A DNA stretch of 51,500 nucleotides, from contig JAFWXZ010000008.1 of the NCBI GenBank assembly GCA_017522795.1, positions 1 through 51,500 on the forward strand, read 5' to 3'. How positions within the stretch are numbered: position 1 is the stretch's first letter; the number at the start of each line of letters is the position of its first letter. Below the pieces are notes generated by a model. That model saw only the letters and a program-made list of their open reading frames with translations. It had not been told where the DNA came from and ran no database searches. The DNA is from Clostridia bacterium (GTDB lineage: Bacteria > Bacillota > Clostridia > Oscillospirales > CAG-272). Below, one piece after another: positions 12,416-50,953 of this stretch. The position numbers were made by a program, and so were the translations under genes.

Positions 12416-13261
12416 TTACTTTTTCAGATTGGAAAGCTTTTCTGCCCTGTATTCCATAGGAGTTTTGCCTTTGATTTTTTTAAAGCTTTTTGACATATAT
12501 TTGACGTCGGAATATCCAAGCATCTGCGCTATTTGTGAAAGAGAATAATTTGTGGTGACCAGCATAGAGGCTACCTGTATTATTCGTTGGTTTGCCCAAT
12601 ACGCAATGGGAGTCTGATTATATTCTTTTTTGAAGACCCTTTCAATGTGAGATTTGCTTATATAAAGATTGTTGCTTATATCATCCAGTGAAATCTTTTC
12701 GGTGATATGTGCATCAATATAATTCTTTATCATCTCGGGAATATAGTTTGTGCTTGGCTTAATGAGATAAGGAGGAGGAAATGCTTGTTGGAAAAGCTCC
12801 AATACCGAGACTGCCAGCTTATCATAATTTACAGTATCATTTCGGCTCAGATGCTCGATTATATGCAGCATCAGACCTCTGAGATTGCAATCGTTGATAT
12901 ATACGCTGTCCGTAAGACGGTAGCTGGAAACAAGGAAGTCAACGAAGCTTCCCTTAAGCACAATAAAGACCTTTTCGTAAGGCTGATCGGGATCCGCATA
13001 ATAAATATGGTAGCGAAGCTTGTTCAAAAAATAGAAGTCGCCTTCCTTTACCGTGTACTTTTCTTCGGGAGTTTCAATATGCCCAACACCTTTTATTACG
13101 TATTCAAAAACATAATAATCGTAAGGGAATTTTTTAGAGATATTGTGCATTATTCTATAAGTTGGATTCGGGTGTGTTATACCCGCCATAATGACCTCAA
13201 GATAATCGTTTCCGAGCGTGTTGTGTACAACGATCTCTTCTCCCCAATTGCTGATGTACAT
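12416..13261 (-). CDS. AraC-family transcriptional regulator of the glycan locus
   Basis: A 281-residue regulator. The N-terminal cupin-like sensor domain (about 1-165) shows a VFEYVIKGVGHIE strand and a KEGDFYFLN turn. The C-terminal AraC/XylS double helix-turn-helix (about 180-281) shows SLDDISNNLYISKSHIERVFKKE in the first HTH and the signature SLSQIAQMLGYSDVKYMSKSFKK in the second. Such proteins bind sugars and activate catabolic genes. It is divergent from the operon starting near 13600, and four TTTGTGCA-type motifs lie in the shared gap, so it likely controls the transporter and hydrolases. GGGAGGGAG lies just before ATG 13261. Confidence 0.92.
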   Translation of the reverse strand: MYISNWGEEIVVHNTLGNDYLEVIMAGITHPNPTYRIMHNISKKFPYDYYVFEYVIKGVGHIETPEEKYTVKEGDFYFLNKLRYHIYYADPDQPYEKVFIVLKGSFVDFLVSSYRLTDSVYINDCNLRGLMLHIIEHLSRNDTVNYDKLAVSVLELFQQAFPPPYLIKPSTNYIPEMIKNYIDAHITEKISLDDISNNLYISKSHIERVFKKEYNQTPIAYWANQRIIQVASMLVTTNYSLSQIAQMLGYSDVKYMSKSFKKIKGKTPMEYRAEKLSNLKK

Positions 13262-13291
13262 ATTCTCCCTCCCTTCGTTTTATTCATTAAT

Positions 13292-13320
13292 ATTTTACCA
13301 TATTTTTTTTGCATTGTAAA
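13292..13320 (-). promoter_or_regulatory. Promoter of the AraC gene
   Basis: Minus strand TTTACA (13315-13320) and TAAAAT (13292-13297), 17-base spacer, about 30 bases before the start codon. Confidence 0.65.
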
Positions 13321-13348
13321 CCCACGAAAAGCGATTATTTGGTTATAA

Positions 13349-13697
13349 TGCACAAAAAACAAACTGACAATTGTGCAATATACAAAAAAATAGAACAAAA
13401 ATGAGAATATTTTACCCCTATTTGCATAATCTCATCAGTTCCCCCAAAAATCGTTCTGTGTTAGAATATTAATGGGCAAGTATAAAAATCTGTTATTAGA
13501 TTTTAATAAAAATTTTTTTATTATAAAATGCAGTTTGTGCATTTTTTACGACAAAACAATTAAATATTTAAATAAATAATTTAAGGAGGAAAGATTGGTG
13601 GTAAAAACGAAAAGATTTACACCGCTTATTTCAACGTTGATCTGCAGGGAGGAAAATATCAAAAAAAGATAATTTTAGACACTGCAAATTGCACAAA
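13349..13697. promoter_or_regulatory. Four TTTGTGCA-type motifs, candidate AraC operators
   Basis: The divergent gap holds four copies of a (T/A)TTGTGCA(T/A)T-like motif: 13349-13355 (reverse), 13371-13377 (forward), 13538-13544 (forward, inside an 8-base inverted repeat AAAATGCA-gtttg-TGCATTTT at 13525-13545) and 13688-13697 (reverse). The first two face each other as TGCACAA/TTGTGCA. Arrangement beside an AraC gene suggests binding sites, but no experiment is implied. I see no convincing -35/-10 pair for the plus-strand operon, in keeping with activator dependence. Confidence 0.45.
13598..13672 (+). CDS. Possible 24-residue leader peptide
   Basis: A near-perfect Shine-Dalgarno (TTAAGGAGG, 13581-13589) precedes a GTG at 13598 that opens 24 codons (basic MVKTKRFTPLISTLI start, ending KKR) and stops at 13670-13672. 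It could be a leader ORF governing the structured RNA that follows, or the remnant of a signal-peptide gene that was lost. No homology recognised. Confidence 0.35.
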   Translation: MVKTKRFTPLISTLICREENIKKR

Positions 13698-13765
13698 CGT
13701 ATAAGCCATGTATGGCATTTTACGTTAAGGTCGGAAGCTTGGGAGTCTTAATGACCTAAAGCTTC
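13696..13765 (+). promoter_or_regulatory. Structured leader RNA with hairpin and possible pseudoknot
   Basis: AACGTA/TACGTT (13696-13701, 13721-13726) enclose GCCAT/ATGGC (13705-13709, 13712-13716) as an interrupted hairpin. Next, GGTC (13729-13732) pairs with GACC (13753-13756), and GAAGCTT (13734-13740) pairs with AAGCTTC (13759-13765). The two pairings are interleaved, which is a pseudoknot topology. It lies about 100 bases before the first large gene of the operon, and no U-rich terminator tail follows. Function unknown. Confidence 0.35.
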
Positions 13766-13871
13766 TCTCGTTCACTTCTATTGTTACCCAAATGCTGTGT
13801 TGTACTCACAGCTTAAAACAAAAAAATAAAGGAGAAAATAATCAAAAGTACAATTGATTATCATTAAGATT

Positions 13872-14981
13872 ATGAAAAAAATTATTTCGACATTAACTAT
13901 ATGTCTTCTTGTGTGCTGTCTTTGCTTCTTAGCAACAGGATGTGAAAATCCCGACACTCCCAATAATAATGATGATAATAATAAGCAGCCCGTTATTGAG
14001 TCTCTGACCGCAACTGAAGCGTCTACTACTATAAAGATAGGTGACTCCATTCTTCTTACTAACTTTTATGAGATCAAGGGTACCTCGGCGCTTAGCGCAG
14101 CTCAGAGAGCCTGCACGTATGAATCGAGCAATCCTGATGTAGTTGAGATCAAGGCTAAGAGAGCAGAGGCCATCTCTTCCGGTACTGCAACTATTACCGT
14201 TACCTCTAACATAGACAATACTAAGAGCTGCTCTTTTGAGGTTGTGGTTGCGGGAGTATTTATTGACAGAGAGCTTTCTATGATTCCTTCCGAGGATGAT
14301 TTCTCTAACGAGTGGGATGATCAGACTAAGACGGGCTCCTTCAGAACCAGCTCGGGCATCACCAACTTCTATTACATCGCAGACGTTCTTTCAACTCAGT
14401 GGTATGTTGAAACCGATATCACTCTTAACAGTGTTAACTGGGACGATAGATGGCCTAAGATCGGTATCGTTGCTGCTAGCGAGAATTCAAACGGAGTTGA
14501 AACTATGGTTGCATTCTTCCTGAACGCATCCATCGGTCTTAACGATACGTATGACGAGGCGGGTAATCTCATCAAGGGTGAGGACAATAACGGATGGAAC
14601 GAGTTTGGCGTATGTGAGGTATCTCAGGGCGATCACTGGGCTTGGGAACCCGGAATTACCAATTCTCTTGCAAGACACCATGACTACGCTTGGAACACCG
14701 GTGACAACAAGATCACCTTCGGCACTACATTCAAGCTTGGAGTTGCCCGCGACGGTGCTAACTTCCACGTTTACGTAAATGGCAACTATATGGGCTCTTA
14801 CCAGTTAAGCTCCGATCTTGAGATCCTTTACGAGAACGGTCAGCCTATAGCAAGCCATATCGGTTTCTATCAGTTCAGCAGCGATGTAACCTTCGCTAAT
14901 TATTCTGTGACCTCAGATGCTGCAGACGTAGCGGCTAAGGTTCCTGCCGAACCCGTATACTGCGAGTTCCTTGAAGACTGA
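13872..14981 (+). CDS. Secreted lipoprotein: Ig-like plus LamG-like domain
   Basis: A 369-residue lipoprotein (lipobox LATGC, Cys24) with an Asn/Asp-rich linker. It has a bacterial Ig-like (Big_2-type) domain (about 40-125: TIKIGDSILL..., YESSNPDVVEI, SGTATITVTS). A C-terminal beta-sandwich domain (about 135-350) has a concanavalin/LamG-like pattern (WYVETDITL, FKLGVARDGANFHVYVNGNYMG). That last phrase is typical of carbohydrate-binding or DUF1080-like jelly rolls. No catalytic residues are obvious, so surface glycan capture is a reasonable guess. First large gene of the operon. The start is uncertain: ATG 13872 fits the signal peptide, but the nearest good RBS (AAAGGAG, 13827-13833) is about 38 bases away; TTG at 13854 is the alternative. 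Confidence 0.7.
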   Translation: MKKIISTLTICLLVCCLCFLATGCENPDTPNNNDDNNKQPVIESLTATEASTTIKIGDSILLTNFYEIKGTSALSAAQRACTYESSNPDVVEIKAKRAEAISSGTATITVTSNIDNTKSCSFEVVVAGVFIDRELSMIPSEDDFSNEWDDQTKTGSFRTSSGITNFYYIADVLSTQWYVETDITLNSVNWDDRWPKIGIVAASENSNGVETMVAFFLNASIGLNDTYDEAGNLIKGEDNNGWNEFGVCEVSQGDHWAWEPGITNSLARHHDYAWNTGDNKITFGTTFKLGVARDGANFHVYVNGNYMGSYQLSSDLEILYENGQPIASHIGFYQFSSDVTFANYSVTSDAADVAAKVPAEPVYCEFLED

Positions 14982-14983
14982 TA

Positions 14984-16207
14984 GTGAAAGCTTTTGAATC
15001 CAACATAGCCGTTCTGAAGCGCTCCTCTCCTGCTAAAATGAGCAAGCGCTTCGTCGGTTGTGTTATAGATTTCATTATTGTAGCGCTGTTTGCCGAGCTG
15101 GTTTTTATGGGACTTTTACAGATTACCGTGAATACATCGGCTTACAGTGCTGCTGAAGCAACCGTTGATGAGGAGATCGCTTTTTATGAGAAATTGACCG
15201 AAGAAACTCATATCGTAGAGTATGTGGACGGTAGTAGAGTATCTGCGGACGTTATAGTTCTCAAAAATCTGTACCGCGCCATATGCCTCTCTTATGAGGT
15301 TTTCGGAAACGATCAGCAGCCCGATTTTATTTTTGATGCGGACCACGATGTAACGATAAACGGCACTCATTCGGTAGAAAACGACAATCTGGCTTACTTT
15401 TATATCAAGTATCTAAGCGAAAACGCTTCTCTTAATATAGAGGTAAAGGACGATCTGTTTGAGATATATAAGCGAGCTTTCGGAAATGACGCATCGTTTA
15501 TGTTTTCCTTTAATAAAGAGCTTTCTGAAATCCCGGTGTTGAATACACAGGTTGCATACTATTTATTCCACTACCTCTTCATTGACGATTCTGACAACAT
15601 AGGACAGACAGGTGCAACCTATTATCAGTCCTATTACAGAGGCTACTCTTTTATGCTAGAGGAGGCAGAACAGCTTATACTTCAGAGCGAGCCATATTAT
15701 TCCACTCGCTATTTAAGATATAAGGAAGCCTATTGTGCAGAAGCGAGATATGTCAATATTACGTTGGTAATATCTGTTGTCATAGCCTGCTTGGTTGTAC
15801 TGCTGATGCCGAGATATTTGTTCGGTGACGGTAAAACCGTTGGATATAAGCTGCTTGGTCTTGGTGTGATAAGCAGCGAAGGTAAGGCTATCAAGTGGTA
15901 CGTGCCGCTTGCCAAAACGGTTCTCGCTTGCTTCGGAGCTATTACTATAGCGCTTGTTTTATACTTATTCCCACCGTTTAACGGTGTATATGACGCGATG
16001 TTTTTGCCTTTGACGGTCGATACTCACATATCCTTTGGTATGATTATATTGATAGTCGCTGTTATCACAGGCATAATTAACGCAATTGGATTGTTTACAA
16101 ACAAAAGACAAACTTTATTAAATTTGATCTTCGATGATATTGTCGTTGACGTTCATTATCTTGACGAGGGAGAACGTAATGACAACAATCAAGGAAGAGA
16201 TTATTAA
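14984..16207 (+). CDS. RDD-family membrane protein with large external insertion
   Basis: A 407-residue membrane protein. The RDD signature opens it (KRFVGCVIDFIIVALFAELVF, TM1 about 20-45). A roughly 200-residue soluble, probably extracytoplasmic segment follows (about 50-250). The rest carries three further helices (about 258-275, 308-332, 345-370), with the second RDD half FGDGKTVGYKLLGLGVISSEGKAIKW. Typical RDD proteins are 150-200 residues, so the insertion is unusual. Some RDD proteins transport ions, but most are uncharacterised. GTG 14984 begins two bases after the upstream stop, implying translational coupling to the lipoprotein gene; a later ATG is possible. A partnership with that lipoprotein is inference. 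Confidence 0.72.
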   Translation: MKAFESNIAVLKRSSPAKMSKRFVGCVIDFIIVALFAELVFMGLLQITVNTSAYSAAEATVDEEIAFYEKLTEETHIVEYVDGSRVSADVIVLKNLYRAICLSYEVFGNDQQPDFIFDADHDVTINGTHSVENDNLAYFYIKYLSENASLNIEVKDDLFEIYKRAFGNDASFMFSFNKELSEIPVLNTQVAYYLFHYLFIDDSDNIGQTGATYYQSYYRGYSFMLEEAEQLILQSEPYYSTRYLRYKEAYCAEARYVNITLVISVVIACLVVLLMPRYLFGDGKTVGYKLLGLGVISSEGKAIKWYVPLAKTVLACFGAITIALVLYLFPPFNGVYDAMFLPLTVDTHISFGMIILIVAVITGIINAIGLFTNKRQTLLNLIFDDIVVDVHYLDEGERNDNNQGRDY

Positions 16208-16224
16208 AAGAAAGGGCAACTACA

Positions 16225-17853
16225 ATGAAATTGTTAAAAAAAGGTTTTATCAAGGTCACAAGCCTTTTAATGATAGTCTCGCTTATGCTGGGACTTATCG
16301 GATGTGGAAACGACAACAATGACGACAATAAGAACAACGGCGGCACAGACAGCATTGTTGACGATCTTCCAAGAGATGAAAACGGCGAGTTCGTTGCCGA
16401 TTATCTGGAGGGCGTTCAGCTTAACGTGTGGAGCGTTATCGGTAATCCCGACCAGAAAATCCTGCTTGAACTCATCAAGGAGTTCAATAAGGAATACGCG
16501 GGTATGATCGAGATCAAGGTCACATCTGTCGGACACTACGATTACTATAACTCTCTTGACAGTACATACGCTAACGATTACGGCAATTTCCCTGATGTAT
16601 GTATTATGCATAATGAGAAGAATATTGAATATGCACTTAAGGGCTATTTCTATTCTCTTGACGATCTTATCACCACCGTTGGCGTAGGAATAGACTTTGA
16701 CAACGCATATGACAACATTGAGAAGACCACAATTCACGAGGGAAAGCACTATGGCATTCCCGTAGATGCCCACGGATATCTTACTCAGATAAGACAGGAT
16801 ATTATTAAAAAGAACGGCCTCGGCTTTGAGAATAACACTCGCTTCATACCCAATGATTATGATGAATATCAGACTCTTCTTGAGGGGCTCAGAGCGCTTG
16901 CTGACACAGGTGAGCTTTGGGTGAGAAACATCAATCTTGATGAGGATCACTCGTGGTATCAGCTCAAAAATGGCAATTCCAAGCTGGATGCCGCTGCGGT
17001 TGTCACTACCGATAACTTCTATCCCGCATTCTTCCACTCTCAGGAGAGTGATAACCTTACCGCTCTTTATGTAAATGGCGGATCTCTCCTTGATGCCAAT
17101 GGCGACGTTTCCTTCCACAAAAATGCAGGTATGACCCAGTATGTTACCGACCTTGTAGACCGCTACAACGCAGACTTGTACGGTGACGCAGGAAACAAGG
17201 AGGCGGCATTCCCAACCGGACAGATCGTAATGTTCTCCGAGGGACCTTGGATGGTTGCTAACACCTATGATATCTGGTGGAATAACAATCAGCTTTCCAC
17301 CGCGGGCAAGCTTGGCGTTACCGAGGAGGATGCCAGCGATCCCGTATACGCTAATCCTTACGCAGTAGCACGTCCTTATTATATGGCTGCTGATGGCGCA
17401 CCTACCGAAACTGCGTCTAAGTGGTATGGCAACGGACACGTTATCACACTTACAAAGAAGATAACCAGTATGCAGAAGGCTGCCGCCGCTCTTATCTTTG
17501 CCGAGTGGCTTACTCAGGGACAGAACGAGGATGGCAACTATAACCTTATCGATTGGTGTAAGTCGGGTCACGTTCCCGCTTGGAAAAATGTTTACGAGTC
17601 CGATGCCTATAAGGAGGCAGAGTCTAAGAGCATTACTCTTCAGGCTATGGGAGATCCCGAGCAGATCATCGCTCTTGAAAGCTCTCAGTATGCTACCACT
17701 CTTATTTCAGGTCTTACCACCGCTGTTGGAAACGTAAGCGCTCAGTTGCTCTCGGTAGACGGCTGTACGGTTGATAAGGCAAAGCAGACAATGAATGAGA
17801 TTGCAGCCTCAACACAGGAGGCGCTTAACCTTCTTAAGCTTGGAATTAAATAA
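16225..17853 (+). CDS. Sugar ABC transporter substrate-binding lipoprotein (family 1-like)
   Basis: A 542-residue binding protein. Lipobox GLIGC (Cys27), an Asn/Asp-rich linker, then a large two-lobed fold. LNVWSVIGNPDQKILLELIKEF (about 68-90), GNFPDVCIMH, YGIPVDAHGYL, and the FPTGQIVMFSEGPWMVANTY segment are the usual signs of CUT1 extracellular solute-binding proteins. It is longer than the common 420-450, as seen for some oligosaccharide binders. It delivers an oligosaccharide to the permeases encoded directly after. AAAGGG lies a few bases before ATG 16225. Confidence 0.9.
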   Translation: MKLLKKGFIKVTSLLMIVSLMLGLIGCGNDNNDDNKNNGGTDSIVDDLPRDENGEFVADYLEGVQLNVWSVIGNPDQKILLELIKEFNKEYAGMIEIKVTSVGHYDYYNSLDSTYANDYGNFPDVCIMHNEKNIEYALKGYFYSLDDLITTVGVGIDFDNAYDNIEKTTIHEGKHYGIPVDAHGYLTQIRQDIIKKNGLGFENNTRFIPNDYDEYQTLLEGLRALADTGELWVRNINLDEDHSWYQLKNGNSKLDAAAVVTTDNFYPAFFHSQESDNLTALYVNGGSLLDANGDVSFHKNAGMTQYVTDLVDRYNADLYGDAGNKEAAFPTGQIVMFSEGPWMVANTYDIWWNNNQLSTAGKLGVTEEDASDPVYANPYAVARPYYMAADGAPTETASKWYGNGHVITLTKKITSMQKAAAALIFAEWLTQGQNEDGNYNLIDWCKSGHVPAWKNVYESDAYKEAESKSITLQAMGDPEQIIALESSQYATTLISGLTTAVGNVSAQLLSVDGCTVDKAKQTMNEIAASTQEALNLLKLGIK

Positions 17854-17874
17854 AATTAAAGAAGGATTAGTTAT

Positions 17875-18942
17875 ATGAAAAAGACTGTTGTTTTAGAGGA
17901 GTATGCTAAACAAAGGTCTAAGCGTATAGGGGCACTGAAGAAATACGGAATTACGGCGCTCTTTTTATTGCCGTATCTGATAGCATTTATCGTTTTCTTC
18001 GTATTACCGCTGTTCTACGGAATTTACATTTCACTTACGAACTTTCAATATGGAAAGCCGGGAGTTGAGACCTTCAATTCATTCCTTTGGTTCAAAATGA
18101 TTTTTGACAAATCAGTTATGCCCGGCGTATTCAACAGCTTCTGGCTTTCCTTCACTCATACGCTTATATTCTCGGTGATAATGGTTCCGATAGCGATCAT
18201 TTTGCCCCTGTCCTTGGCAATATTGGTTAATCAGAAGCCGCCCGCTTTCAAGCTGTTCCGAGCTCTGATCTATATGCCATCAATAGTTCCGCTGACCGCT
18301 GCGGGTACTATCTTCACGCTGCTCTTTATGTCCAAGTCACAGCATGGCGTTTTAGCCGAGTTCTTTGGCATAGATATTCAGTGGTTTATAGATAATTGGT
18401 TCTCGTTTGATCTGTTCGGTCAGGAAATCGAAATTGCTTACGCTTGGATACCCATATTCTTTATGTGCTTATGGGGAGGCTGGGGAGGCAACTTTATCAT
18501 TCTCAGCGCCGGACTTCAGAACGTACCTAAGCATCTTTACGAGGCGGCTGATATTGACGGCTGCTCGCCAATGCGCAAAATAATGAACGTCACTGTTCCC
18601 GGAATTAAGCCTCAGCTCGTTCTGTGCTTGTTTACCACGATACTTGGATATCTGGGACTGTACGGTCAGAATTACGTGCTGTCGAGCGGCGGACCTTCAA
18701 TAGCTGCCATTGCAAGTATGCCCGCAGGAGGTAAGACCTCAACTATTATGTACTTTATTCAGGATATAGTAGCGAATAATCTGACCTTCAAATCCAGCCT
18801 TTACGGTCTTGGAGCTGCGGCGAGCTTGGTATATGCGTTGTTTGCGGGAGTTATTTCGGGTATTCAAATGTACCTTACCCGCGAGAAGAAAACCGGCACA
18901 AAAATTTCGGAGGCATATAACAAATGGCACGAAATAAGATAA
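17875..18942 (+). CDS. Sugar ABC transporter permease (MalF/UgpA type)
   Basis: A 355-residue inner-membrane permease with about six helices. It has a basic N-terminus, TM1 about 23-48, and the cytoplasmic EAA motif that contacts the ATPase: YEAADIDGCSPMRKIMNVTVPGIKP (about 222-246). ISLTNFQYG near the start is a typical CUT1 feature. It forms the translocation pore together with the next gene, whose start lies inside its last codons. GAAGGA precedes ATG 17875. Confidence 0.92.
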   Translation: MKKTVVLEEYAKQRSKRIGALKKYGITALFLLPYLIAFIVFFVLPLFYGIYISLTNFQYGKPGVETFNSFLWFKMIFDKSVMPGVFNSFWLSFTHTLIFSVIMVPIAIILPLSLAILVNQKPPAFKLFRALIYMPSIVPLTAAGTIFTLLFMSKSQHGVLAEFFGIDIQWFIDNWFSFDLFGQEIEIAYAWIPIFFMCLWGGWGGNFIILSAGLQNVPKHLYEAADIDGCSPMRKIMNVTVPGIKPQLVLCLFTTILGYLGLYGQNYVLSSGGPSIAAIASMPAGGKTSTIMYFIQDIVANNLTFKSSLYGLGAAASLVYALFAGVISGIQMYLTREKKTGTKISEAYNKWHEIR

Positions 18943-19874
18943 CATTAGAACAATACATAGGCTTTCGTAAAAAGAAAGAATTCGGAGAAAAAAGAAAAAT
19001 AAATGTCGGAAAGATAGTTTCGTTTACCTTTCTGCTTCTGTTCTGTATAGTTTGGCTGTCGCCGTTTATTATTATGTTCTTCGGATCTCTGAGGGGATAT
19101 TCGGATACAATGCTATATCCCAAAGAGCTTTTTTATCCCCATAGCGGATATACGCTTGAAAACTACGAGATGCTTCTTCTCGGAAAGCTTCCTGAGGGCA
19201 TAGGACAGGTTAATACGGTTCAGGATTATAAGATCGGCACTTGGTTTATGAACAGCTGCTTTAGCGCTATCGGCGGAACGTTGCTGTATCTCCTGGTAGC
19301 CTCGATGGCGGCTTACGCATTTACCTTTATTGATTTCAAGTACCGCAACGTTTTGTTTGCCATCATAGTTGCTTCTATGGTCATTCCCGGTGCGGCTACG
19401 TCCGTCGGAAATCAGTCTATGGTTTATTCGATGGGACTTAACAGATCGCTTCTTGCACTGATCATTCCGGGACTTGGCGGAGTTTACGGTATGTATCTTA
19501 TCAAGACCTTCTTTGAATCAATACCGAAGGATCTTATTGAATCTGCAAAGATGGACGGCTATAGCAATTTTAAAATTTTCTATAAAATCGTGTTGCCCTT
19601 AGGCAAAACCGTTCTCTTCGTTCAGGGGTTGTTCGGCTTTATGGGCGGTTGGAACGATCTTATATGGCCTCAGATGCTTTACGGAGCAAAGGATACTGAC
19701 TTGTGGACGTTACAGGTCGGTATGGCATACATCATCAACAATTCCAAGACCAGTAATTTGATAGGCTCGGCATTAGCGGGCGGTGTTATCTGCCTTCTTC
19801 CCGTGCTTGTAATGTATATTATTGCTCAGGATAAGATTATTGAAGGTATGTCCAGCAGTGGAATTAAAGGATAA
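18924..19874 (+). CDS. Sugar ABC transporter permease (MalG/UgpE type)
   Basis: A 316-residue permease with six predicted helices. The EAA loop is IESAKMDGYSNFKIFYKIVLPLGK (about 205-230), and the N-terminal helix ends with LSPFIIMFFGSLR. It overlaps the preceding permease by 19 bases. CGGAGG lies about 9 bases before ATG 18924, inside the upstream gene, so the pair is translationally linked, which suits a heterodimeric pore. Confidence 0.92.
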   Translation: MARNKITLEQYIGFRKKKEFGEKRKINVGKIVSFTFLLLFCIVWLSPFIIMFFGSLRGYSDTMLYPKELFYPHSGYTLENYEMLLLGKLPEGIGQVNTVQDYKIGTWFMNSCFSAIGGTLLYLLVASMAAYAFTFIDFKYRNVLFAIIVASMVIPGAATSVGNQSMVYSMGLNRSLLALIIPGLGGVYGMYLIKTFFESIPKDLIESAKMDGYSNFKIFYKIVLPLGKTVLFVQGLFGFMGGWNDLIWPQMLYGAKDTDLWTLQVGMAYIINNSKTSNLIGSALAGGVICLLPVLVMYIIAQDKIIEGMSSSGIKG

Positions 19875-19889
19875 TAGGGAGTGTATTTA

Positions 19890-21914: not shown

Positions 21915-21931
21915 TGTTGGGAGGATTATTT

Positions 21932-23593: not shown

Positions 23594-23602
23594 GAGGTTA
23601 AT

Positions 23603-25369: not shown

Positions 25370-25373
25370 TAAA

Positions 25374-27650: not shown

Positions 27651-27731
27651 TTATTCATCGGGAAAAGCAAAAAACTTCTTTAATTTAGTTTGACGCAAAT
27701 TTCAAATAAAATTTTCAAAAGGAGAAAAAAC

Positions 27732-33341: not shown

Positions 33342-33383
33342 ATCACTTTAAACTACGGATTATTATTTTTAAAAGAAACAAAA

Positions 33384-33412
33384 GCAAGAAAGGGCATCTC
33401 GCCCTTTCTTGC
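33384..33412. repeat. Intercistronic hairpin without U-tract
   Basis: A perfect 12-base inverted repeat GCAAGAAAGGGC/GCCCTTTCTTGC with loop ATCTC in the 105-base gap between two operon genes. No T-run follows on the plus strand (ACAATTAAAC), so it is more likely an RNA-stabilising or processing hairpin than a full terminator. The first 40 bases of the gap and the part after the hairpin hold only the next RBS. Confidence 0.6.
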
Positions 33413-33446
33413 ACAATTAAACTCATCTAAAAAATGAGGTGAAACA

Positions 33447-36161: not shown

Positions 36162-36172
36162 GAGGAATTACT

Positions 36173-41233: not shown

Positions 41234-41242
41234 ATATTAATT

Positions 41243-41301
41243 TGGGCAATAGAGGATAGCATCCTCTGCCACCTGCACCTAGCGTGCAGGTGGCAGGCCC
41301 A
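41243..41301 (+). promoter_or_regulatory. Compact three-helix RNA element / intercistronic hairpins
   Basis: An outer 5-base stem TGGGC/GCCCA (41243-41247, 41297-41301) encloses two hairpins: GAGGAT-agc-ATCCTC (41252-41266) and TGCCACCTGCAC-ctagc-GTGCAGGTGGCA (41267-41295). ACAAGATTTTTC follows, so it may be a terminator or a processing site. It fills the first half of the 148-base gap after the 1686-residue protein; a candidate promoter occupies the second half. Confidence 0.5.
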
Positions 41302-41327
41302 CAAGATTTTTCTATAATAAAGCACAT

Positions 41328-41355
41328 TTGCTTAAAATGTATTTTCTTATATAAA
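41328..41355 (+). promoter_or_regulatory. Candidate internal promoter before the GH2 gene
   Basis: TTGCTT (41328-41333) and TATAAA (41350-41355) with a 16-base spacer, about 27 bases before the start codon. With the hairpins just upstream it suggests a separate transcript for the GH2-to-galE block. Confidence 0.45.
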
Positions 41356-41381
41356 AATCATACACGCAAGGAGTTTTTAGT

Positions 41382-43118: not shown

Positions 43119-43125
43119 TTAACTT

Positions 43126-44787
43126 ATGAAAAAAATATTTTTGTTTTTACTATTGTGCATATCCGTTATTTCGATAATGTCATGCTCAGCTCCTGATGAC
43201 ACGAATACCGATCAAAATAAGAACGCTTTTCTTGTCGAAAACGAGGATTATGTAGACCTTGCATCGAAATATGACGGAGAGTCGTTCGACTATAATAAGT
43301 TGCTTTGGTATATCAATGATCTTGCCGAGGTTCCTTTGCCGGATCCTTTTGTATATGTAGAAGATGATACATATTATATTGTCGGCACTAACGATAGAAA
43401 TGTCAATACAGTCGATTGCTATGTGACAAAGGATTTTTCTACGTATACACATTATCGTGATATATACGATCCATCTAAATACGGCGGCTGGGAAAATGAT
43501 TCTGCCGAGATTTATGCTCCGGAAATATATTGCTTTGACGGTGTGTACTATATGTACTATAGTGCCGATGATAAGCAGGGAGTGAGAAGATGCAGTGTGA
43601 CTGTTGCTGATAATCCGCTTGGCCCGTATAAGCCGTTAGTAAATGAGAGTGTTGATGGACTTAACTATCCTTTGTTTATGAAGGATGAAAACTCTGAAAG
43701 AGCACTTGATGCAACGGTGTTCACTGATGATGACGGTAAAATGTATATGTACTTTACAGTCACGTCTGATACGCAGCACATTGTGGGCGTTGAGCTTATT
43801 TCTCCTTATGAGGCGGATTGGTCTACCTATCGCGATCTTGTGATTCCCGGAACCGTCGATTCCGAGAGCGAGGAGCAGATCCTTGAGTGGGAGATGTATA
43901 GAGATAATAAGGTCAAGATCGCCGAGGCTCCCATTATGATAAAAAGTGAGGGGAAGTATTATCTCACCTATTCGGTCAACGGGTGCTGGAATAAGTATTA
44001 CAATGTTTGCTATGCGGTATCCGATACACCTCTCGGCAATTATGTAAAGCCTTATGAAGAGGGGAAGTTATGGACAAATCTTCTTATGGGCTTCCCCGGC
44101 ACACCCGATGAGGATGAGCTGATATACGGTCAGTGGGAGGGGTTTGCCTCGGGTACGGGACACCACAGCTTCTTTTACGTGGGTGATCAGCTTATGATCG
44201 GATACCACGCTCACAAAAATAGAGGTTGGAATTCCAAGTATTACACCCCAAGATATTTTGCTATTGACTACGTTCATTTTGATGAAAATGGCACTCCCTT
44301 CTGCAACGGTCCTACGTACTCGATTGTTAATCTGCCGGAAAATATCAGTGGATTTTCGAATGTTGCGGTCGGTGGCGTTGCCTATGGCAACAATGTTGAA
44401 AATGCTGAAAAATCCAACGATAATTATATAGTTGACTGTTATAATTTGGATAATAAGAATAACGAGGTTGCTTTGGGAGAAGGAGAATCGTATATAGAGA
44501 TCAAGCTTGATGATTCATATGAGATTAAAGCAATTTTGATTTATAACAGCGCTTATTACGATAGTTACATAACTGAAATTGAGTATATTGATTTCGGCAA
44601 CGGAAATATTGTTTATTATCCTCAGTTTTGCGAGGACTTTTATGTTAATGATGAAACGGAGTTTATATATCCTGGCAGCTGCTTTAACATTGAATTTATA
44701 AAAAACTTTAAAGCAGAAAGCGTTAGGATAGGCTTTAATCTGCCAAATGGCGGAAGCATTAATGAAATAGTTGTTTTAGGAAAATAA
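43126..44787 (+). CDS. Second GH43-family glycosidase lipoprotein, paralog of the 21932 gene
   Basis: A 553-residue lipoprotein (lipobox MSC, Cys20), the same length and layout as the gene at 21932. The catalytic base is probably Asp73 in PLPDPFVYVEDD, the modulator lies in ALDATVFTDDD, and the acid is Glu267 in IAEAPIMIKSEGKYYLTYS. IYAPEIYCFDGVYYMYYS, GFASGTGHHSFF and the F5/8-like tail (VDCYNLDN, YIEIKLDDSYEIKAILIYN) are shared almost word for word, so the pair arose by duplication and both kept the active site. They may differ in linkage or anomer. It begins seven bases after the GH2 stop and has no strong Shine-Dalgarno. Confidence 0.86.
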   Translation: MKKIFLFLLLCISVISIMSCSAPDDTNTDQNKNAFLVENEDYVDLASKYDGESFDYNKLLWYINDLAEVPLPDPFVYVEDDTYYIVGTNDRNVNTVDCYVTKDFSTYTHYRDIYDPSKYGGWENDSAEIYAPEIYCFDGVYYMYYSADDKQGVRRCSVTVADNPLGPYKPLVNESVDGLNYPLFMKDENSERALDATVFTDDDGKMYMYFTVTSDTQHIVGVELISPYEADWSTYRDLVIPGTVDSESEEQILEWEMYRDNKVKIAEAPIMIKSEGKYYLTYSVNGCWNKYYNVCYAVSDTPLGNYVKPYEEGKLWTNLLMGFPGTPDEDELIYGQWEGFASGTGHHSFFYVGDQLMIGYHAHKNRGWNSKYYTPRYFAIDYVHFDENGTPFCNGPTYSIVNLPENISGFSNVAVGGVAYGNNVENAEKSNDNYIVDCYNLDNKNNEVALGEGESYIEIKLDDSYEIKAILIYNSAYYDSYITEIEYIDFGNGNIVYYPQFCEDFYVNDETEFIYPGSCFNIEFIKNFKAESVRIGFNLPNGGSINEIVVLGK

Positions 44788-44802
44788 AAAGGAGCAATGA
44801 TT

Positions 44803-47604
44803 ATGAAAAAACAGACAAATCGTGTTTTAACGTTCACCTTCGCGCTTGTTTTAGTTCTTTCTATATTTGCTGTAACTATTAGTGCCGCCGATCCTTTGTG
44901 GGTAAGTAGCGGCATTTCAGATCCTACGGATTATGATTATTCCTTTGCGGTTGTCGGCGATACTCAAAAGCTTGTTGCTCATTATGCGAACAAGCTAGTC
45001 TTAGATCGCGGAGATGCTGATGAAATCAAGTACAAGGTTAATTACGACCAGCACGAGTATCCCGCAAACGATACCTTTGTGATGCTCTACGACTATATTA
45101 TAAATAATAAGGATTCCAAAAATATAGCCCATGTTTTCGGTCTTGGCGACATCACCGAGCGCGCATCAGTTTGGGACTGGGTACAGAAGGGTTGTCCTTA
45201 TGCTCCCGATGAGGAGTTTTCTATTGCTATAGAGCAATTCAAGCGTATGAAGGAGGCAGGTCTTGACTTCTCCCTTGTGCGCGGAAACCATGAGTCGTGG
45301 GATACTTATAACAAGTATCTTGGCACGGGCGAAAATGCGAGCGAGCTTGATTATGCGAATATGGTTGATGAGGTTTACACTCATTCCAACGGAACTGTGG
45401 ATTACACGAATACTATCCACTATTTTTCCGCAGGGAACCTCGACTATATGGTTATCACCCTTGACTACGGTGCAAGTGACGCGGTTTTGACATGGGCAGG
45501 TGAGAGAATTGCAGCCAATCCCTATAAAAATGTAATCATTACAACTCACGCATATATGCACGATGACGGGACGACCATCGACACCGGTGACTCTGTTGCG
45601 CCTTCAAGAGATTCCGACAACACCGTTTACGATAAGACCAATATCAACAACGGTGACGATTTATGGAATAAGTTTATTTCAAAATATCCCAACATCGTTC
45701 TTGCAATGAGCGGTCATCAGGGAACCGATAACGTGGTAATGACTCAGTGGACAGGTGACGCGGGCAACGTAGTTACCAATATGCTTATTGACCCTCAGGG
45801 TATGGATAAAACCTATTTTAACAACGGCTGCTCCGGTGCTGTTGCTATGTTATATTTCTCGAACGGAGGCAAGACTGTTGAAGTTCGCTATTGGTCTACC
45901 GCAAGAGAGTGCTATATAAAAACCTCTAATCAGTTTAAATTCAATATAAATACCATTGACGCAGATTATACTGTAGTTAATCGCGGTGTGGCAACTCTTC
46001 CCGATGCAGAAAAGCTTAACTTGGGTGATTACGAAAAGGTAACGGAGCTTTGGAAAATATACAGCAATATGTCGGACGCAAACAAAGCAAAGCTTGACGA
46101 TGCTGCAAAGCTTGTGGAAGCTCATGCCAAAATTCAATCCTTGACTCCTTCTGAGAAGTACACGATCACTTGGAGTATCAATGGCAAGACCGAAACGTCC
46201 ATCCACTCCTACGGTGAGAATCCTGTATTCGGTGGCTCCGCATACAAGTACGGCCACGAGCTTATCGGTTGGGCGACAGAGGAGAACGGCAAGGTTGCAG
46301 GTATTCCTATCGTGACCGAGGACGAGACCTACTATGCGGTATTCTCAGACGTCAGCCTTTGGGATGCCTTCATTCCTGAAATTTCTGAAGACGACACCGC
46401 AGACACCCTATTTGACGGTAAAGGAACAAAGGATGACCCATACCTTATTCAGTCGGCGGACGACCTTGCAAGACTTTCCGCACTTACCAAGGGAAAGAAC
46501 TACGGAAACAGCTCGGTTTACTTCAAACAGACTATTGACATTGATTTGAGAGAAGGAAACTGGCAGCCCATCTGCTCGGACATTGAATATCCTGACAATA
46601 AGTGGACAAGATGGTTCACGTTCTCTGCAAATTATGACGGAGATAACCACACAGTATATCTTAACGAATCTTCGATGAAATTGGCGTTTGGTCTTTTCGG
46701 TGGACTTAACGGAAGTGTAAGCAATCTTATAATTGACGGTAATATTAAATCCCTCGGTTATACGGGCGCGCTTGTAAGCCAGGCACATAACGGTGCGATT
46801 ATTACAAACGTTGTAAATAAGGCAAATATTAACGCAAACGGCAATCAGGTTGGCGGACTTGTGGGCAATATCTCAAACGAGGCAACAGTAACTATTACAA
46901 AATGTAAAAACGAGGGTAATATTGTTGCTAACGGTACCTTTGTCGGCGGTTTTGTCGGCGGCGGATATGCAACTGCTAAGATTTCCGATTCCGTGAATAT
47001 AGGAAATATTACCGGAAATTCTTTCGTTGGCGGAATGACGGGCGAGATATGGTTTAGCGGAACGGTTATCGGATGCAAGAACCTGGGAATTATTACTGCC
47101 GGCGGTCTCACAGCCCAAAAAAATGTCGGTGTCGATAACAAATACGCAGGTAACCTTGTGGGAAAAAGTAATCAGTTCTATACAGTCACTTGGGAGATAG
47201 ATGGCTCGTATTACTATGTTGATCTACCCGCGGGCTCGGAGGCTTGTTATGAAAGTACTCCCGTAAAAGATGGATACTCATTCTTGGGCTTTACTGTTTC
47301 GGAAAACGGTGATCCTATGACAGAGGAGGATATGCCTCTTGTAAGCGCAAACGTAACGTATTATGCAATATTTGTAAAGAATACAACTACTCCCGATCCT
47401 ACTCCTGACCCCGGTCCTACTCCTGACCCCGATCCTACTCCTGATCCCGATCCTACTCCCGACCCCGATCCTACTCCTGACCCCGATCCTACTCCCGACC
47501 CGATCCTACTCCCGACCCCGATCCCGATCCTACTCCCGATCCGGATAAAAACGAGGAAGAAAAAGAGAAACTTAATTTCTTTGAAAAAATTTGGAGAGCT
47601 ATAA
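44803..47604 (+). CDS. Secreted metallophosphoesterase with InlB-like and GLUG repeats, frameshifted tail
   Basis: A 933-residue reading frame with a classical signal peptide (cleavage after TISA, about residue 30). It has a calcineurin-like metallophosphoesterase domain (about 45-370: FAVVGDTQK, GLGDITERA, RGNHES, TTHAYMH, MSGHQGTD) closely related to that at 36173. An InlB/Listeria-Bacteroides repeat (about 450-515), DPYLIQSADDLARLS, GLUG units (about 620-785), a second InlB-like repeat (about 790-860) and a PTPDPDP linker follow. The linker has one base too few in a C-run near 47499, which shifts the frame to a basic nonsense tail. The restored frame runs to 47645 and ends with FFEKIWRAIINFFRKLFG, an amphipathic tail common in secreted Firmicutes proteins. 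ATG 44803 suits the RBS AAAGGAG. Confidence 0.83.
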   Translation: MKKQTNRVLTFTFALVLVLSIFAVTISAADPLWVSSGISDPTDYDYSFAVVGDTQKLVAHYANKLVLDRGDADEIKYKVNYDQHEYPANDTFVMLYDYIINNKDSKNIAHVFGLGDITERASVWDWVQKGCPYAPDEEFSIAIEQFKRMKEAGLDFSLVRGNHESWDTYNKYLGTGENASELDYANMVDEVYTHSNGTVDYTNTIHYFSAGNLDYMVITLDYGASDAVLTWAGERIAANPYKNVIITTHAYMHDDGTTIDTGDSVAPSRDSDNTVYDKTNINNGDDLWNKFISKYPNIVLAMSGHQGTDNVVMTQWTGDAGNVVTNMLIDPQGMDKTYFNNGCSGAVAMLYFSNGGKTVEVRYWSTARECYIKTSNQFKFNINTIDADYTVVNRGVATLPDAEKLNLGDYEKVTELWKIYSNMSDANKAKLDDAAKLVEAHAKIQSLTPSEKYTITWSINGKTETSIHSYGENPVFGGSAYKYGHELIGWATEENGKVAGIPIVTEDETYYAVFSDVSLWDAFIPEISEDDTADTLFDGKGTKDDPYLIQSADDLARLSALTKGKNYGNSSVYFKQTIDIDLREGNWQPICSDIEYPDNKWTRWFTFSANYDGDNHTVYLNESSMKLAFGLFGGLNGSVSNLIIDGNIKSLGYTGALVSQAHNGAIITNVVNKANINANGNQVGGLVGNISNEATVTITKCKNEGNIVANGTFVGGFVGGGYATAKISDSVNIGNITGNSFVGGMTGEIWFSGTVIGCKNLGIITAGGLTAQKNVGVDNKYAGNLVGKSNQFYTVTWEIDGSYYYVDLPAGSEACYESTPVKDGYSFLGFTVSENGDPMTEEDMPLVSANVTYYAIFVKNTTTPDPTPDPGPTPDPDPTPDPDPTPDPDPTPDPDPTPDPILLPTPIPILLPIRIKTRKKKRNLISLKKFGEL
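47390..47546 (+). repeat. 18-base tandem repeats coding PTPDPD
   Basis: About eight imperfect copies of an 18-base unit (CCTACTCCTGACCCCGAT type) that encode a Pro/Asp linker. One unit has GACCCGAT instead of GACCCCGAT near 47497-47503, which produces the frameshift in the gene above. Such runs are prone to slippage and to assembly error. Confidence 0.85.
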
Positions 47605-47671
47605 TTAACTTCTTCAGAAAGCTCTTCGGTCTTGAGGAAATATAAAAACTAAAACGTTTGAGGTCGGGTGT

Positions 47672-48691
47672 ATGAAAAAATATCTTTTGCCCAATACAGG
47701 TGATTTTTATAAGGCTAACCTGCATATCCATAGTAGCATTTCTGATGGCGAGATGAGTCCTGAGGAAATAAAAAAGGCATATATGGAGAAAGGGTACTCT
47801 GTAGTCGCCTTTACCGATCATGAGGTGATGGTTCCTCATCCTGAATTGACGGATGGTCATTTTGTGGCTTTGACGGCGACGGAAATCAGTGTCAACCAAA
47901 AAAGTGACTGTGATTTTTGCTATACCAAGGCATACCATCTTAACATTTATTCATCGGAAGAAAACAAAAGCTGCTTTAACTCCTTCGATAGCTCTAAGAT
48001 ATGGTTGAATCAATCGTTTCCTTTTATTACTCCCGAACAGAAAAATATAGGTATTAAGCGAATATATACAACCGATTGTATTAACGAGATTATATATATG
48101 GCTAACCAAGAAGGGTGCATTGTTTCCTATAACCATCCCGTTTGGTCTTTACAGGATTACACCGATTATATTGATTTGAAGGATCTTTGGGGAGTCGAGG
48201 TATACAACAATTTATGTGCAAAGGACGGACTTCTCGATTCTCCAAAACCCTTCGATGATATGTTAAAAAACGGTGAATGCGTTTTTCCCTTAGCAACCGA
48301 TGATGCTCACCATCTGCAGGATTGCTTTGGCGGATTCGTTATGATAAAAGCTGAGGAATTAATCTATAGCTCTATATTCAGTGCATTGAAAAACGGAGAT
48401 TTTTATGCTTCGTCAGGTCCTGAAATCTATGAATTGTCAATAGAAAAAGGTGTGATAAACATAAAATGCTCTCCCGTGTCTTTTGCTTGTGTTTCTACAG
48501 ATTGTAGATGTACTTATACAAAAAGAATGGATGATAGTCCTCTTACAGAAATAACCATTGATATTGGCGATTATTTAAAACGTGTTAACACTGATATGAA
48601 TAAGCGCGGATATATTCGCATTACTTTAACAGATGAAGTCGGTAGATCCGCTTTTAGTCGCGCATATTATATTAATGAAATAATGGAGTAA
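47672..48691 (+). CDS. PHP-domain phosphoesterase-like protein
   Basis: A 339-residue protein without a signal peptide. The PHP metal-binding motifs are present: NLHIHSSISDG (about 16-26), FTDHEVM (about 47-53), a Glu in LTATEIS, YNHPVW (about 153-158) and the TDDAHH segment (about 209-214). These belong to the trinuclear-metal PHP fold used by histidinol phosphatase and by 3',5'-nucleoside bisphosphate phosphatase. A C-terminal beta-rich part of about 90 residues follows. The product could be a phosphatase for sugar or glycerol phosphates released by the surface enzymes, although the family is broad. GAGGTCGGG precedes ATG 47672, and the galactokinase start lies three bases past its stop. 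Confidence 0.75.
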   Translation: MKKYLLPNTGDFYKANLHIHSSISDGEMSPEEIKKAYMEKGYSVVAFTDHEVMVPHPELTDGHFVALTATEISVNQKSDCDFCYTKAYHLNIYSSEENKSCFNSFDSSKIWLNQSFPFITPEQKNIGIKRIYTTDCINEIIYMANQEGCIVSYNHPVWSLQDYTDYIDLKDLWGVEVYNNLCAKDGLLDSPKPFDDMLKNGECVFPLATDDAHHLQDCFGGFVMIKAEELIYSSIFSALKNGDFYASSGPEIYELSIEKGVINIKCSPVSFACVSTDCRCTYTKRMDDSPLTEITIDIGDYLKRVNTDMNKRGYIRITLTDEVGRSAFSRAYYINEIME

Positions 48692-48694
48692 ACA

Positions 48695-49837
48695 ATGACA
48701 GCAATAGAATCAATTTTTAAAGAGGAGTTTGGCGCAGAGCCGGAGGCGATTTTCTCCGCAGCGGGACGTGTTAATCTTATCGGTGAGCATATCGACTATT
48801 GCGGTGGAAGGGTTTTGCCGGCCGCGCTTTCTTTGAAATGCCGTGTAGCAGTTAGGAAAAACGGTACTAGTATTTTGCGTATTGCCGCCACAACGATTGA
48901 TGCTCGTGCTGAGATAGATCTTACCAACACCGGCGCATACCAAAATCTTCCTTGGGGAAATTATCAGGCTGGTGTTGCAGATGAGATGAAACGCGCAGGA
49001 TATAATCTTGTAGGGTGCGATATTTTATACGATTGCACCGTTCCTTTTGGTAGCGGATTGTCATCATCGGCAGCCATAGAGGTCGCAACGGCATATGCTT
49101 TAGCTAAAATGGGTGGAAATAAGATTGATAAGGTAGAGCTTGCAGTCATTTCCCAAAGGGCAGAAAACAATTACTGTGGCGTAAATTGTGGAATAATGGA
49201 TCAGTTTGCATCCGCAAATGGCAAAAAGGATCATGCAATTCTTATTGATTGTGCTACTCTTGAATATGAGCATATCCCCCTGAATCTTGGGGATTTCGTT
49301 CTCGTTCTTGCCAATTGCAATAAGCCTCATAACCTCCGAGAAAGCAAATACAACGAGCGACGCGATGAGGTTGAGGTAGCGCTGAAAATATTAAAAACTA
49401 AAATTTCCTCAGATAATCTGTCGCAGATTTCCTCAGATACAGTTGAAAGATACAAAGATCTCCTTGGGGAAACGATATACCGACGCGCAAAGCACGTCAC
49501 CACCGAATGTGAGCGAGTTGCCAAAAGCGTAGAGGCTTTAAAGAACAATGATCTTGCTGGCTTCGGGCGGCTTATGTACGAGTCCCATGATTCGTTGAAA
49601 TATGACTACGAGGTGACGGGCAGAGAGTTAGATACTCTCGTAGAGGCCGCTAGGCTTCAGAAGGGATGCATAGGATCAAGAATGACCGGCGCAGGCTTTG
49701 GTGGATGCACAGTCAGCCTCGTAAAAAAAATTTGCGTTAATGAATTTATAGAAAATGTAGGACAGCGTTACAGATCTGTTATAGGATACGATGCATCATT
49801 TTATGTTGCAGATATAGCGGATGGAATTGTTGGCTAA
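48695..49837 (+). CDS. galK: Galactokinase
   Basis: A 380-residue GHMP-family kinase that phosphorylates galactose to galactose 1-phosphate using ATP in the cytoplasm. The galactokinase signature GRVNLIGEHIDYCGG (about 23-37) is clear, with the ATP loop PFGSGLSSSAAIE (about 113-125), the catalytic-base region CGVNCGIMDQFAS and the C-terminal MTGAGFGGCTVSLV. The length is normal. It is three bases after the PHP gene and 12 before galE, in one transcript. galT is not present in this window, so the Leloir pathway is completed elsewhere or by another uridylyltransferase. Confidence 0.95.
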   Translation: MTAIESIFKEEFGAEPEAIFSAAGRVNLIGEHIDYCGGRVLPAALSLKCRVAVRKNGTSILRIAATTIDARAEIDLTNTGAYQNLPWGNYQAGVADEMKRAGYNLVGCDILYDCTVPFGSGLSSSAAIEVATAYALAKMGGNKIDKVELAVISQRAENNYCGVNCGIMDQFASANGKKDHAILIDCATLEYEHIPLNLGDFVLVLANCNKPHNLRESKYNERRDEVEVALKILKTKISSDNLSQISSDTVERYKDLLGETIYRRAKHVTTECERVAKSVEALKNNDLAGFGRLMYESHDSLKYDYEVTGRELDTLVEAARLQKGCIGSRMTGAGFGGCTVSLVKKICVNEFIENVGQRYRSVIGYDASFYVADIADGIVG

Positions 49838-49849
49838 GGAGGAAGTAAA

Positions 49850-50839
49850 ATGTCTATTTTGGTTACAGGAGGAGCAGGATATATTGGCTCCCACACCGCG
49901 CTTGAGCTTATTAAATCCGGTTATGATGTGGTTGTTGTAGACAGTCTTGTCACAGGCTACAGAAAGGCTGTTCCCGATAAGGCAAGATTTTATCAAGGAG
50001 ATATTCGAGATTTTGCTTTTCTGGATAGTTTGTTTAAGAGCGAAAAAATTGATGCCATAGTTCATTTTGCGGCCTTCTCTCTGGTAGGCGAGAGCGTTTC
50101 AAACCCTTTAAAGTATTATGAGAATAATCTCTGTGGAACAAAGATCCTTCTCGATGCAATGGTGGCTAACGGAGTTAAGAAAATCGTATTTTCTTCCACC
50201 GCTGCTACATATGGCGAGCCTGAGAATATTCCGATACTCGAGAGCGACAGAACCTGTCCGACCAACCCATACGGAGAAACCAAGTTGGCTATGGAAAAGA
50301 TGTTTAAGTGGACTAGCGAGGCTCACGGAATGAATTTCGTGTCACTTAGATATTTTAATGCATGCGGAGCTGATCAGTGCGGAAATATTGGTGAGGCGCA
50401 TAATCCCGAGAGTCATCTTATTCCTCTTGTGCTTCAGGTTCCTAACGGAAAGAGGGAATCAATATCTATTTACGGCACCGACTACGATACTCCTGACGGC
50501 ACGTGTATTCGTGATTATATACACGTGACCGATCTTGCCGAGGCACACATCCTCGCTGTAAGGTATCTTTTGGACGGTGGTAAAAGCGATATATTTAACC
50601 TCGGTAACGGGGTTGGATACTCTGTAAGAGAGGTTATTGATGTGGCGCGCAGAGTGACAAATCATCCGATTCCCGCAGTGGAAACTCCCAGACGCGCAGG
50701 TGATCCCGCACGACTTGTGGCATCGAGCGAAAAGGCAAAGTCGGTTCTCGGTTGGAAGCCTGCCCATGATACCCTTGAGGAGATAATCTCCAGCGCTTGG
50801 AATTGGCACAAAAATCATCCTAACGGCTATGCCGAGTAA
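49850..50839 (+). CDS. galE: UDP-glucose 4-epimerase
   Basis: A 329-residue short-chain dehydrogenase/reductase-type epimerase that interconverts UDP-galactose and UDP-glucose with bound NAD. Present are the NAD-binding VTGGAGYIGSHT (about 5-16), the VHFAAFSLVGESVSNPLKYYENN region, SSTAATYG with its catalytic Ser/Thr, the Tyr-x3-Lys pair in NPYGETKLAME, and GTCIRDYIHVTDL. The length is normal. AAGGAGG lies before ATG 49850. It closes the 37 kb array and links galactose release to central metabolism. Confidence 0.95.
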   Translation: MSILVTGGAGYIGSHTALELIKSGYDVVVVDSLVTGYRKAVPDKARFYQGDIRDFAFLDSLFKSEKIDAIVHFAAFSLVGESVSNPLKYYENNLCGTKILLDAMVANGVKKIVFSSTAATYGEPENIPILESDRTCPTNPYGETKLAMEKMFKWTSEAHGMNFVSLRYFNACGADQCGNIGEAHNPESHLIPLVLQVPNGKRESISIYGTDYDTPDGTCIRDYIHVTDLAEAHILAVRYLLDGGKSDIFNLGNGVGYSVREVIDVARRVTNHPIPAVETPRRAGDPARLVASSEKAKSVLGWKPAHDTLEEIISSAWNWHKNHPNGYAE

Positions 50840-50870
50840 AAAATGTAATATTTAATAATAATGTGAAAAA

Positions 50871-50897: not shown

Positions 50898-50953
50898 CCT
50901 AATTCTATATTATCTTAGAATTATAAATCGGAAAGGAAATGGTTTTGGCAAAA

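Follow-up and report, generated by a model that had tools for sequence, protein, structure and literature searches.

The whole stretch of DNA analysed here (the window: one entire contig of 51,500 bases, JAFWXZ010000008.1, from a 1.65-Mb Clostridia genome that is 78% complete) harbors a glycan utilization locus in which sugar-chain enzymes stand together with two phosphodiesterase-like domains, and we see about an even chance that it serves to use a microbial glycan containing galactofuranose (Galf) and bearing acetyl esters and (glycero)phosphodiesters, e.g., phosphoglycero-beta-galactofuran. Judged from its domains, the new part appears to be that two phosphodiesterase-like domains with unrelated folds, i.e., a metallophosphoesterase (MPE) and a GDPD, are fused inside a sugar locus. 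An earlier note on this DNA, made from the letters alone, knew of no described locus with this set, and a search of the open-access literature (without bioRxiv) for such a locus yielded none.

The gene cluster is a real unit, beyond chance, because its order is conserved in four genomes of two genera. Orthologous loci occur in three other genomes, one of the same genus (G022) and two of another genus of the same family (G230 and G187, the latter being one assembly with G060 by checked sequence identity; RGIG5332, sheep colon, holding locus L034). The shared order runs from DUF4886 through AraC, Big_2 lipoprotein, RDD, sugar-binding protein (SBP), two permeases, ATPase, GH43a, SASA1 and GH3 to a giant gene, and from there through SASA2, LamG-MPE, GDPD, GH2 and GH43b to PHP. 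Its left end lies at 10332, slightly left of the 12416 from which the locus had earlier been drawn, and neighbours among the co-directional + strand genes (13854-50839) overlap by up to 19 bases or are separated by up to 148. Best-alignment identities are 57%-95% across the locus genes, the giant gene standing apart at 36-56%; in G022 the locus is spread over two contigs, both of which break inside that gene. A fifth genome (G697) can be read over one 5.6-kb contig that spans permease 1 to GH43a (75-93%) and is not counted for the phosphoesterases, for which the readable loci are those of the window, G022, G230 and G187. Synonymous differences between loci are high (pS 0.44-0.86) and the locus is under purifying selection, with pN/pS at 0.09-0.28 for MPE and GDPD (four pairs each), 0.10-0.30 for GH2, GH43b and PHP, and 0.22-0.36 for LamG. 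Of 70 genomes of the genus, three (window, G022 and G697) have a close GH43b match, as do 3 of 196 in a family sample and 1 of 394 in an order sample (the window's own), so that by this search the whole locus is missing from most genus-mates; a search with the MPE pair in 36 same-genus genomes gave any match in four only (G018, G022, G027 and G029).

Gram-positive polysaccharide utilization loci combine an AraC or LacI regulator, an ABC importer and glycoside hydrolases (GHs). In the window a regulator, an importer and several carbohydrate-active enzymes are clustered in this manner and conserved as a unit elsewhere (four genomes, two genera), and the SBP-permease-permease arrangement, the esterases, the downstream sugar catabolism genes and the placement on one strand are likewise shared; unlike those loci, it has a conserved MPE and GDPD, an ATPase of its own and a giant surface protein with Cys repeats. 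The genes that bear most directly on the substrate are given below (domain calls are from Pfam and NCBIfam scans with family cut-offs, lipoboxes and signal peptides were judged by eye, and percentages are identities in relatives).

21914..23593, + strand, GH43a lipoprotein, predicted furanosidase (PF04616, 116 bits; 74-75% in four relatives)
23603..25369, + strand, SASA/CE6-type esterase lipoprotein 1 (PF03629, 63 bits; 68-70% in three relatives)
25374..27650, + strand, GH3 exo-glycosidase (PF00933, PF01915)
33447..36161, + strand, SASA/CE6-type esterase lipoprotein 2 (PF03629, 65 bits; 59-64% in three relatives)
36173..41233, + strand, fused LamG/metallophosphoesterase/GDPD lipoprotein, 1686 aa (PF13385, PF00149, PF03009)
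41382..43118, + strand, GH2, nearest subfamily GH2_19 of the furanosidase group (similarity to PDB 7xyr and 9j6n)
43126..44787, + strand, GH43b lipoprotein, predicted furanosidase (PF04616)
48695..49837, + strand, galactokinase galK (NF003705, 455.5 bits, cut-off 385)
49850..50839, + strand, UDP-glucose 4-epimerase galE (TIGR01179, 446 bits, cut-off 262.3; 92% in G022)

The MPE and GDPD domains are retained between SASA2 and GH2 in all four readable loci, fused in the window (1686 aa) and its genus-mate G022 (1689 aa) and split into adjacent genes in G230 and G187 (1297 or 1317 aa, plus 549 aa); the absence of phosphoesterases from the locus of close relatives, which the earlier note had named as evidence against its proposal, was thus not what the three readable relatives gave. 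Within the fused protein, Cys repeats are followed by LamG (~36920-37363), the metallophosphoesterase (37520-38425), Gly-rich repeats and the GDPD (40490-41197). The latter scores 113.5 bits with PF03009 (cut-off 23.6) and contains HRGW, ECDV and LLHDDT, in keeping with the HR..E.D..H active-site pattern of GDPD/GlpQ, and it is matched by PDB 5t91, which we take to be Bacillus subtilis GlpQ (E 1.1e-12). Among 295 genomes searched, it was matched at >=70% in locus-bearing genomes only. The MPE is over the PF00149 cut-off of 21.5 in both MPE proteins of the window (32.4 and 22.4 bits), and fold comparison of its predicted model (m29fe4de52b22) ranks the glycerophosphodiesterase GpdQ first, though level with a purple acid phosphatase, with the proviso that a family missing from the VIA list of this comparison proves nothing. 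Calcineurin-like enzymes hold their metals by a canonical set (DxH, GD, GNH, H, GHxH); in a 50-row alignment (45 of 51 named loci, the window and G022), D10, D46, N82, H83, H160 and H222 are present in every row, and the full set is not found in the window MPE. A profile of the MPE matched PDB sequences of SbcD alone, and weakly.

PhoD and GlpQ of B. subtilis form a teichoicase pair, and the earlier note had drawn a parallel with them. It holds for the pairing of a metallophosphoesterase with a GDPD and for the match of the latter to 5t91; it fails for the MPE, which has its nearest (tied) fold in GpdQ, lies in one lipoprotein with the GDPD and is placed inside a glycosidase locus, and the PhoD reading was rejected as neither MPE protein has a PF09423 match at E<=0.001. 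The "unusual load of phosphoesterases" likewise shrinks to a core of two phosphodiesterase-like domains, one MPE and one GDPD, because the second MPE is confined to the window and the PHP call is weak. This second MPE (44797) is 44% identical to the first and has no counterpart at that place in three relatives; an extra LamG-MPE gene lies upstream in G022. In the last part of the 44797 gene (47460-47604), a Pro-Asp-Pro-Thr repeat apparently shifts the frame, either by repeat slippage or by an assembly error: in the gene's own frame the tail has an odd appearance, and another frame reads more naturally.

The glycosidases point to furanosyl linkages. Among PDB sequences the GH2 is nearest to 7xyr over its whole length (E 5.6e-91, residues 4-577 of 578), with similarity also to the beta-D-galactofuranosidase 9j6n (E 8.1e-58). 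An excerpt of one report (PMC12243196) places 7xyr in GH2_19, treats GH2 subfamilies 18/19 as a furanosidase group and gives 7xyr TV where NE stands. In the window enzyme both catalytic motifs are present, i.e., VNESWG (NE as acid/base, aligned with that of 9j6n) and LTEFGG (Glu as nucleophile), and CYTQLTD, a candidate site for the Thr that replaces Trp at the -1 subsite, aligns with YTQ/YTE of 7xyr, 7sf2 and 9j6n. We therefore predict a furanosidase nearest to GH2_19, acting on beta-D-Galf or alpha-L-Araf; it resembles GH2_18/19 enzymes (9j6m/9j6n) in whole-length 7xyr similarity and the kept NE motif and differs in having no visible signal peptide. GH43a and GH43b, 59% identical to each other and both over the PF04616 cut-off, have D73, D195 and E267 invariant in 17 rows, presumably the catalytic Asp, Asp and Glu. 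The only lead to a GH43 subfamily is HoAraf43, and none was assigned.

Galactose is the likely end sugar. In three genomes the locus has galactose-type genes beside it (galK and galE in the window, galT in G187, galE in G022) and galT occurs in all four locus-bearing genomes, while araA was not found, and xylA not above cut-off, in any of these four (incomplete, 74-80%). Of the co-occurrence of the GDPD-MPE with GH43, GH2 and galK, which the earlier note proposed to look for, the GH43 and GH2 part is seen in 4/4 loci and galK in the window's locus only, the latter a point against the proposed substrate.

Lipoboxes are visible on both GH43 enzymes, both SASA esterases, the MPE-GDPD, the giant repeat protein, the Big_2 protein and the putative binding protein, and no signal peptide was seen by eye on the GH3, GH2 and PHP proteins. 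If these placements are right, the lipoproteins at the surface (the GH43 pair, both SASA-type esterases and LamG/MPE/GDPD) would strip off furanosyl residues together with the acetyl and phosphodiester decorations, the ABC transporter would import the trimmed oligosaccharides, the cytosolic GH2 and GH3 would hydrolyze these to galactose, perhaps also to glucose, and galactose would pass to the Leloir path through galK, galT and galE. More specifically, and more tentatively, the locus may be a pathway dedicated to galactofuranans that other gut microbes decorate with phosphoglycerol: two glycerophosphodiesterases, a GpdQ-like MPE and the GlpQ-like GDPD fused to it, would remove the charged decorations ahead of the furanosidases.

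Galactofuranose is made by many microbes and is not known to be made by mammals. Excerpts of published work offer candidate substrates by analogy: the phosphoglycero-beta-galactofuran of Bifidobacterium bifidum PRI1, a known gut polymer that fits in combining galactofuranose and glycerophosphate in a gut bacterium (PMC12413058); the exopolysaccharides (EPS) of Lactobacillus johnsonii, where EPS-1 has phosphoglycerol and O-acetyl and EPS-2 Galf and O-acetyl (PMC7174666); and pneumococcal 35B, with acetylated Galf and phosphodiester-linked repeats (PMC12371886). The earlier interpretation, in which the locus breaks down an acetylated, phosphodiester-substituted, galactose-containing polymer of Gram-positive bacteria, is supported in part: the single conserved unit, galactose as a likely end sugar and a furanosidase reading stand, and a phosphodiester substrate from Gram-positive bacteria is what we infer. 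We know of no producer of phosphoglycero-beta-galactofuran from the ruminant colon. Few galactofuranose-removing enzymes have been characterised; if true, the proposal would show how gut Clostridia exploit the charged coats of their neighbours, supply enzymes that cut phosphoglycerol galactans and give a candidate function to secreted LamG-metallophosphoesterases, a large family whose members are uncharacterised.

Several findings weigh against a phosphodiester-bearing Galf glycan, and they are set out here beside the explanations that they would favor. GpdQ shares its top rank, at Z values no more than 1 apart, with purple acid phosphatase 2bq8 (21.1), SMPDL3A following closely (20.8), and two canonical metal ligands of the MPE are replaced (Gln12 in DxH in 50/50 rows, His at 224 of GHxH in 0/50); in these respects, and in its 15% identity and the LamG in front, the MPE differs from GpdQ (3d03). 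On the sugar side, the relatives of GH2_18/19 and GH43 include arabinofuranosidases, and the predicted GH43b model is nearest to 4qqs, for which an excerpt reports alpha-L-arabinofuranosidase activity (PMC4356313).

These sugar-side points lead to the main rival, a locus for plant arabinogalactan or acetylated pectic side chains, which we hold to be a real though distinctly lesser possibility. Here GH43 and GH2 would remove L-arabinofuranose, GH3 arabinopyranose or galactose, and the esterases acetyl groups, galactose alone would be fermented and the phosphoesterases would be incidental, e.g., for phosphorus scavenging. The best NCBIfam model for the GH3 is indeed an alpha-L-arabinopyranosidase (NF041610, 495 bits, far below its cut-off of 1300), its nearest PDB entries being named beta-glucosidase; hosts are ruminants or horses wherever a record title names one; and a dockerin on a sister LamG-MPE protein (L044:2901-7793) points to plant-fibre settings. 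The L044 phosphoesterase may therefore be part of a complex resembling a cellulosome. Nevertheless, the missing araA counts against this rival, even if the araA and xylA absences come from genomes 74-80% complete and araA is over cut-off in just 23/118 family genomes; no GH53, GH30 or GH16 Pfam match was found in the window locus, although, to judge by eye, a gene that follows galE in G022 resembles GH16; and the GDPD and MPE are constrained and retained in 4/4 loci.

A second rival, which we consider unlikely, is that a module for scavenging phosphorus has been added to a sugar locus, with MPE and GDPD attacking free lipid-derived glycerophosphodiesters and having no substrate in common with the GHs. 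It draws on the wider family: secreted LamG-MPEs are frequent in other Clostridia metagenome-assembled genomes, mostly outside glycan loci and with mixed neighbours, and a GDPD lies within the fetched flanks of 3 of 51 named LamG-MPE loci (L034, i.e., the ortholog, L066 and L082), near the approximately two expected by our arithmetic (3 GDPD in 1.65 Mb), so a link of the family at large to GDPD or GHs is not supported. In L082 (8660-16190), an MPE (76% in the domain) is convergent with a GDPD (~50%) about 1.5 kb away, with no matched GH gene in 20.9 kb and housekeeping-looking neighbours, which means that MPE and GDPD can be coupled without a glycan locus; the next-nearest GDPDs (45-46%, e.g., in G182 and G262) also stand alone amid housekeeping genes. 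A scan of LamG-MPE neighbours (same strand, gap <250 bases, at most two a side, <=1200 aa; 74 found, of which 4 from the ortholog L034 were left out and 70 scanned) gave ABC_tran as the commonest family, with 4/70 (best 25 of 90 families). Against scavenging, MPE and GDPD lie between esterase 2 and GH2 in 4/4 loci of two genera, they are fused in two genomes, and a sister MPE is fused to a SASA esterase.

The least probable explanation is that the cell recycles a Galf-containing surface glycan that it makes itself and recovers galactose, acetate and glycerophosphate from it: glf occurs in G000 (where the UDP-galactopyranose mutase gene adjoins a family-2 glycosyltransferase and galT) and in G022 (glf and galT ~5 kb apart on one contig), making a self-made Galf glycan possible, but glf was not found in G187 and G230 (full locus; 74-76% complete), and the dedicated importer, the AraC gene and the sparse genus distribution (3/70) look like an optional nutrient trait. 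The G000 genes belong to a second galactose cluster on contig 75 (L130:2487-14304), with GH3, GH2, an MFS sugar transporter, the mutase, the glycosyltransferase and galT.

The remaining features are as follows.

10332..12326, - strand, DUF4886 (+ Big_3) protein (PF16227, 231.6 bits)
12416..13261, - strand, AraC-family regulator (PF00165, PF12833, PF02311; 71-77% in three relatives)
13854..14981, + strand, Big_2 lipoprotein, possible glycan binder (PF02368, 21.1 bits, cut-off 22.8; 72-75% in three relatives)
14984..16207, + strand, RDD-like membrane protein (PF06271, 24.0 bits, cut-off 24.1; 68-72% in three relatives)
16225..17853, + strand, putative ABC sugar-binding lipoprotein, 542 aa (lipobox, size and position by eye; 77-81% in three relatives)
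17875..19874, + strand, two ABC sugar permeases, starting at 17875 and 18924 (PF00528; 89-95% in relatives)
19881..21914, + strand, ABC ATPase, MalK type, 677 aa (PF00005, PF17912, PF08402)
27690..33341, + strand, giant lipoprotein, 1883 aa, with Cys repeats and Gly-rich repeats
33384..33412, + strand, intergenic hairpin between the giant gene and SASA2
41290..41359, + strand, promoter-like site with an overlapping A/T dyad (4/4 loci)
44797..47604, + strand, second secreted metallophosphoesterase with repeats (PF00149, 22.4 bits, cut-off 21.5, weak)
47672..48691, + strand, PHP-domain protein, CehA/McbA-like (PF02811, 31 bits; 61-63% in three relatives)

All domains listed in the earlier note (AraC, ABC transporter, two GH43, GH3, GH2, two CE6-type esterases, two MPEs, GDPD, PHP, galK and galE) are present by Pfam/NCBIfam, the PHP protein falling below the CehA/McbA cut-off (NF038032, 57 bits vs 80). 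The DUF4886 protein, the Big_2 lipoprotein, the RDD-like protein and the 1883-aa protein had been missed there. The DUF4886 gene adjoins AraC in 3/3 relatives (61% in G230, 66% in G187, 61% in G022), and its product is probably esterase-like.

The operon may be divided between its surface and cytosolic halves. A hairpin between the giant gene and SASA2 is found in 4/4 loci (12 pairs; 11 and one mismatch in G022), and the gap between GDPD and GH2 (41234-41381) holds a G/C hairpin whose sequence differs between genera while its pairing is kept, followed in 4/4 loci by an A/T dyad over an invariant TATAATAAAG. The promoter-like pair in this gap reads GTGGCA-17-TATAAT in the window and G022 and TTGACA-17-TATAAT in G230 and G187; promoter-like sites in 33300-51500 are overall no commoner than in shuffles (44 vs 37.8, sd 7.4), and the case for this one is its conservation across four sequences. 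These elements suggest that transcription of GH2 and the cytosolic half need not be tied to that of the surface half, and the hairpins and dyad could split the operon by RNA processing or by an internal promoter. Upstream of the first operon gene, from which the AraC gene is divergent, the block AAAAATGAGAATATTTTAC at 13397-13415 is common to the window, G230 and G187 and is a candidate AraC binding site.

The 542-aa and 1883-aa proteins have no Pfam or NCBIfam match; homologues of the latter are 846-850 aa long in G230 and G187, and repeats akin to its own also occur in the MPE-GDPD protein. In the window and in four relatives the ABC ATPase is 677-680 aa long; it carries two long inserts, one (~110 residues, judged by eye) preceding the signature motif and the other near the C-terminus.

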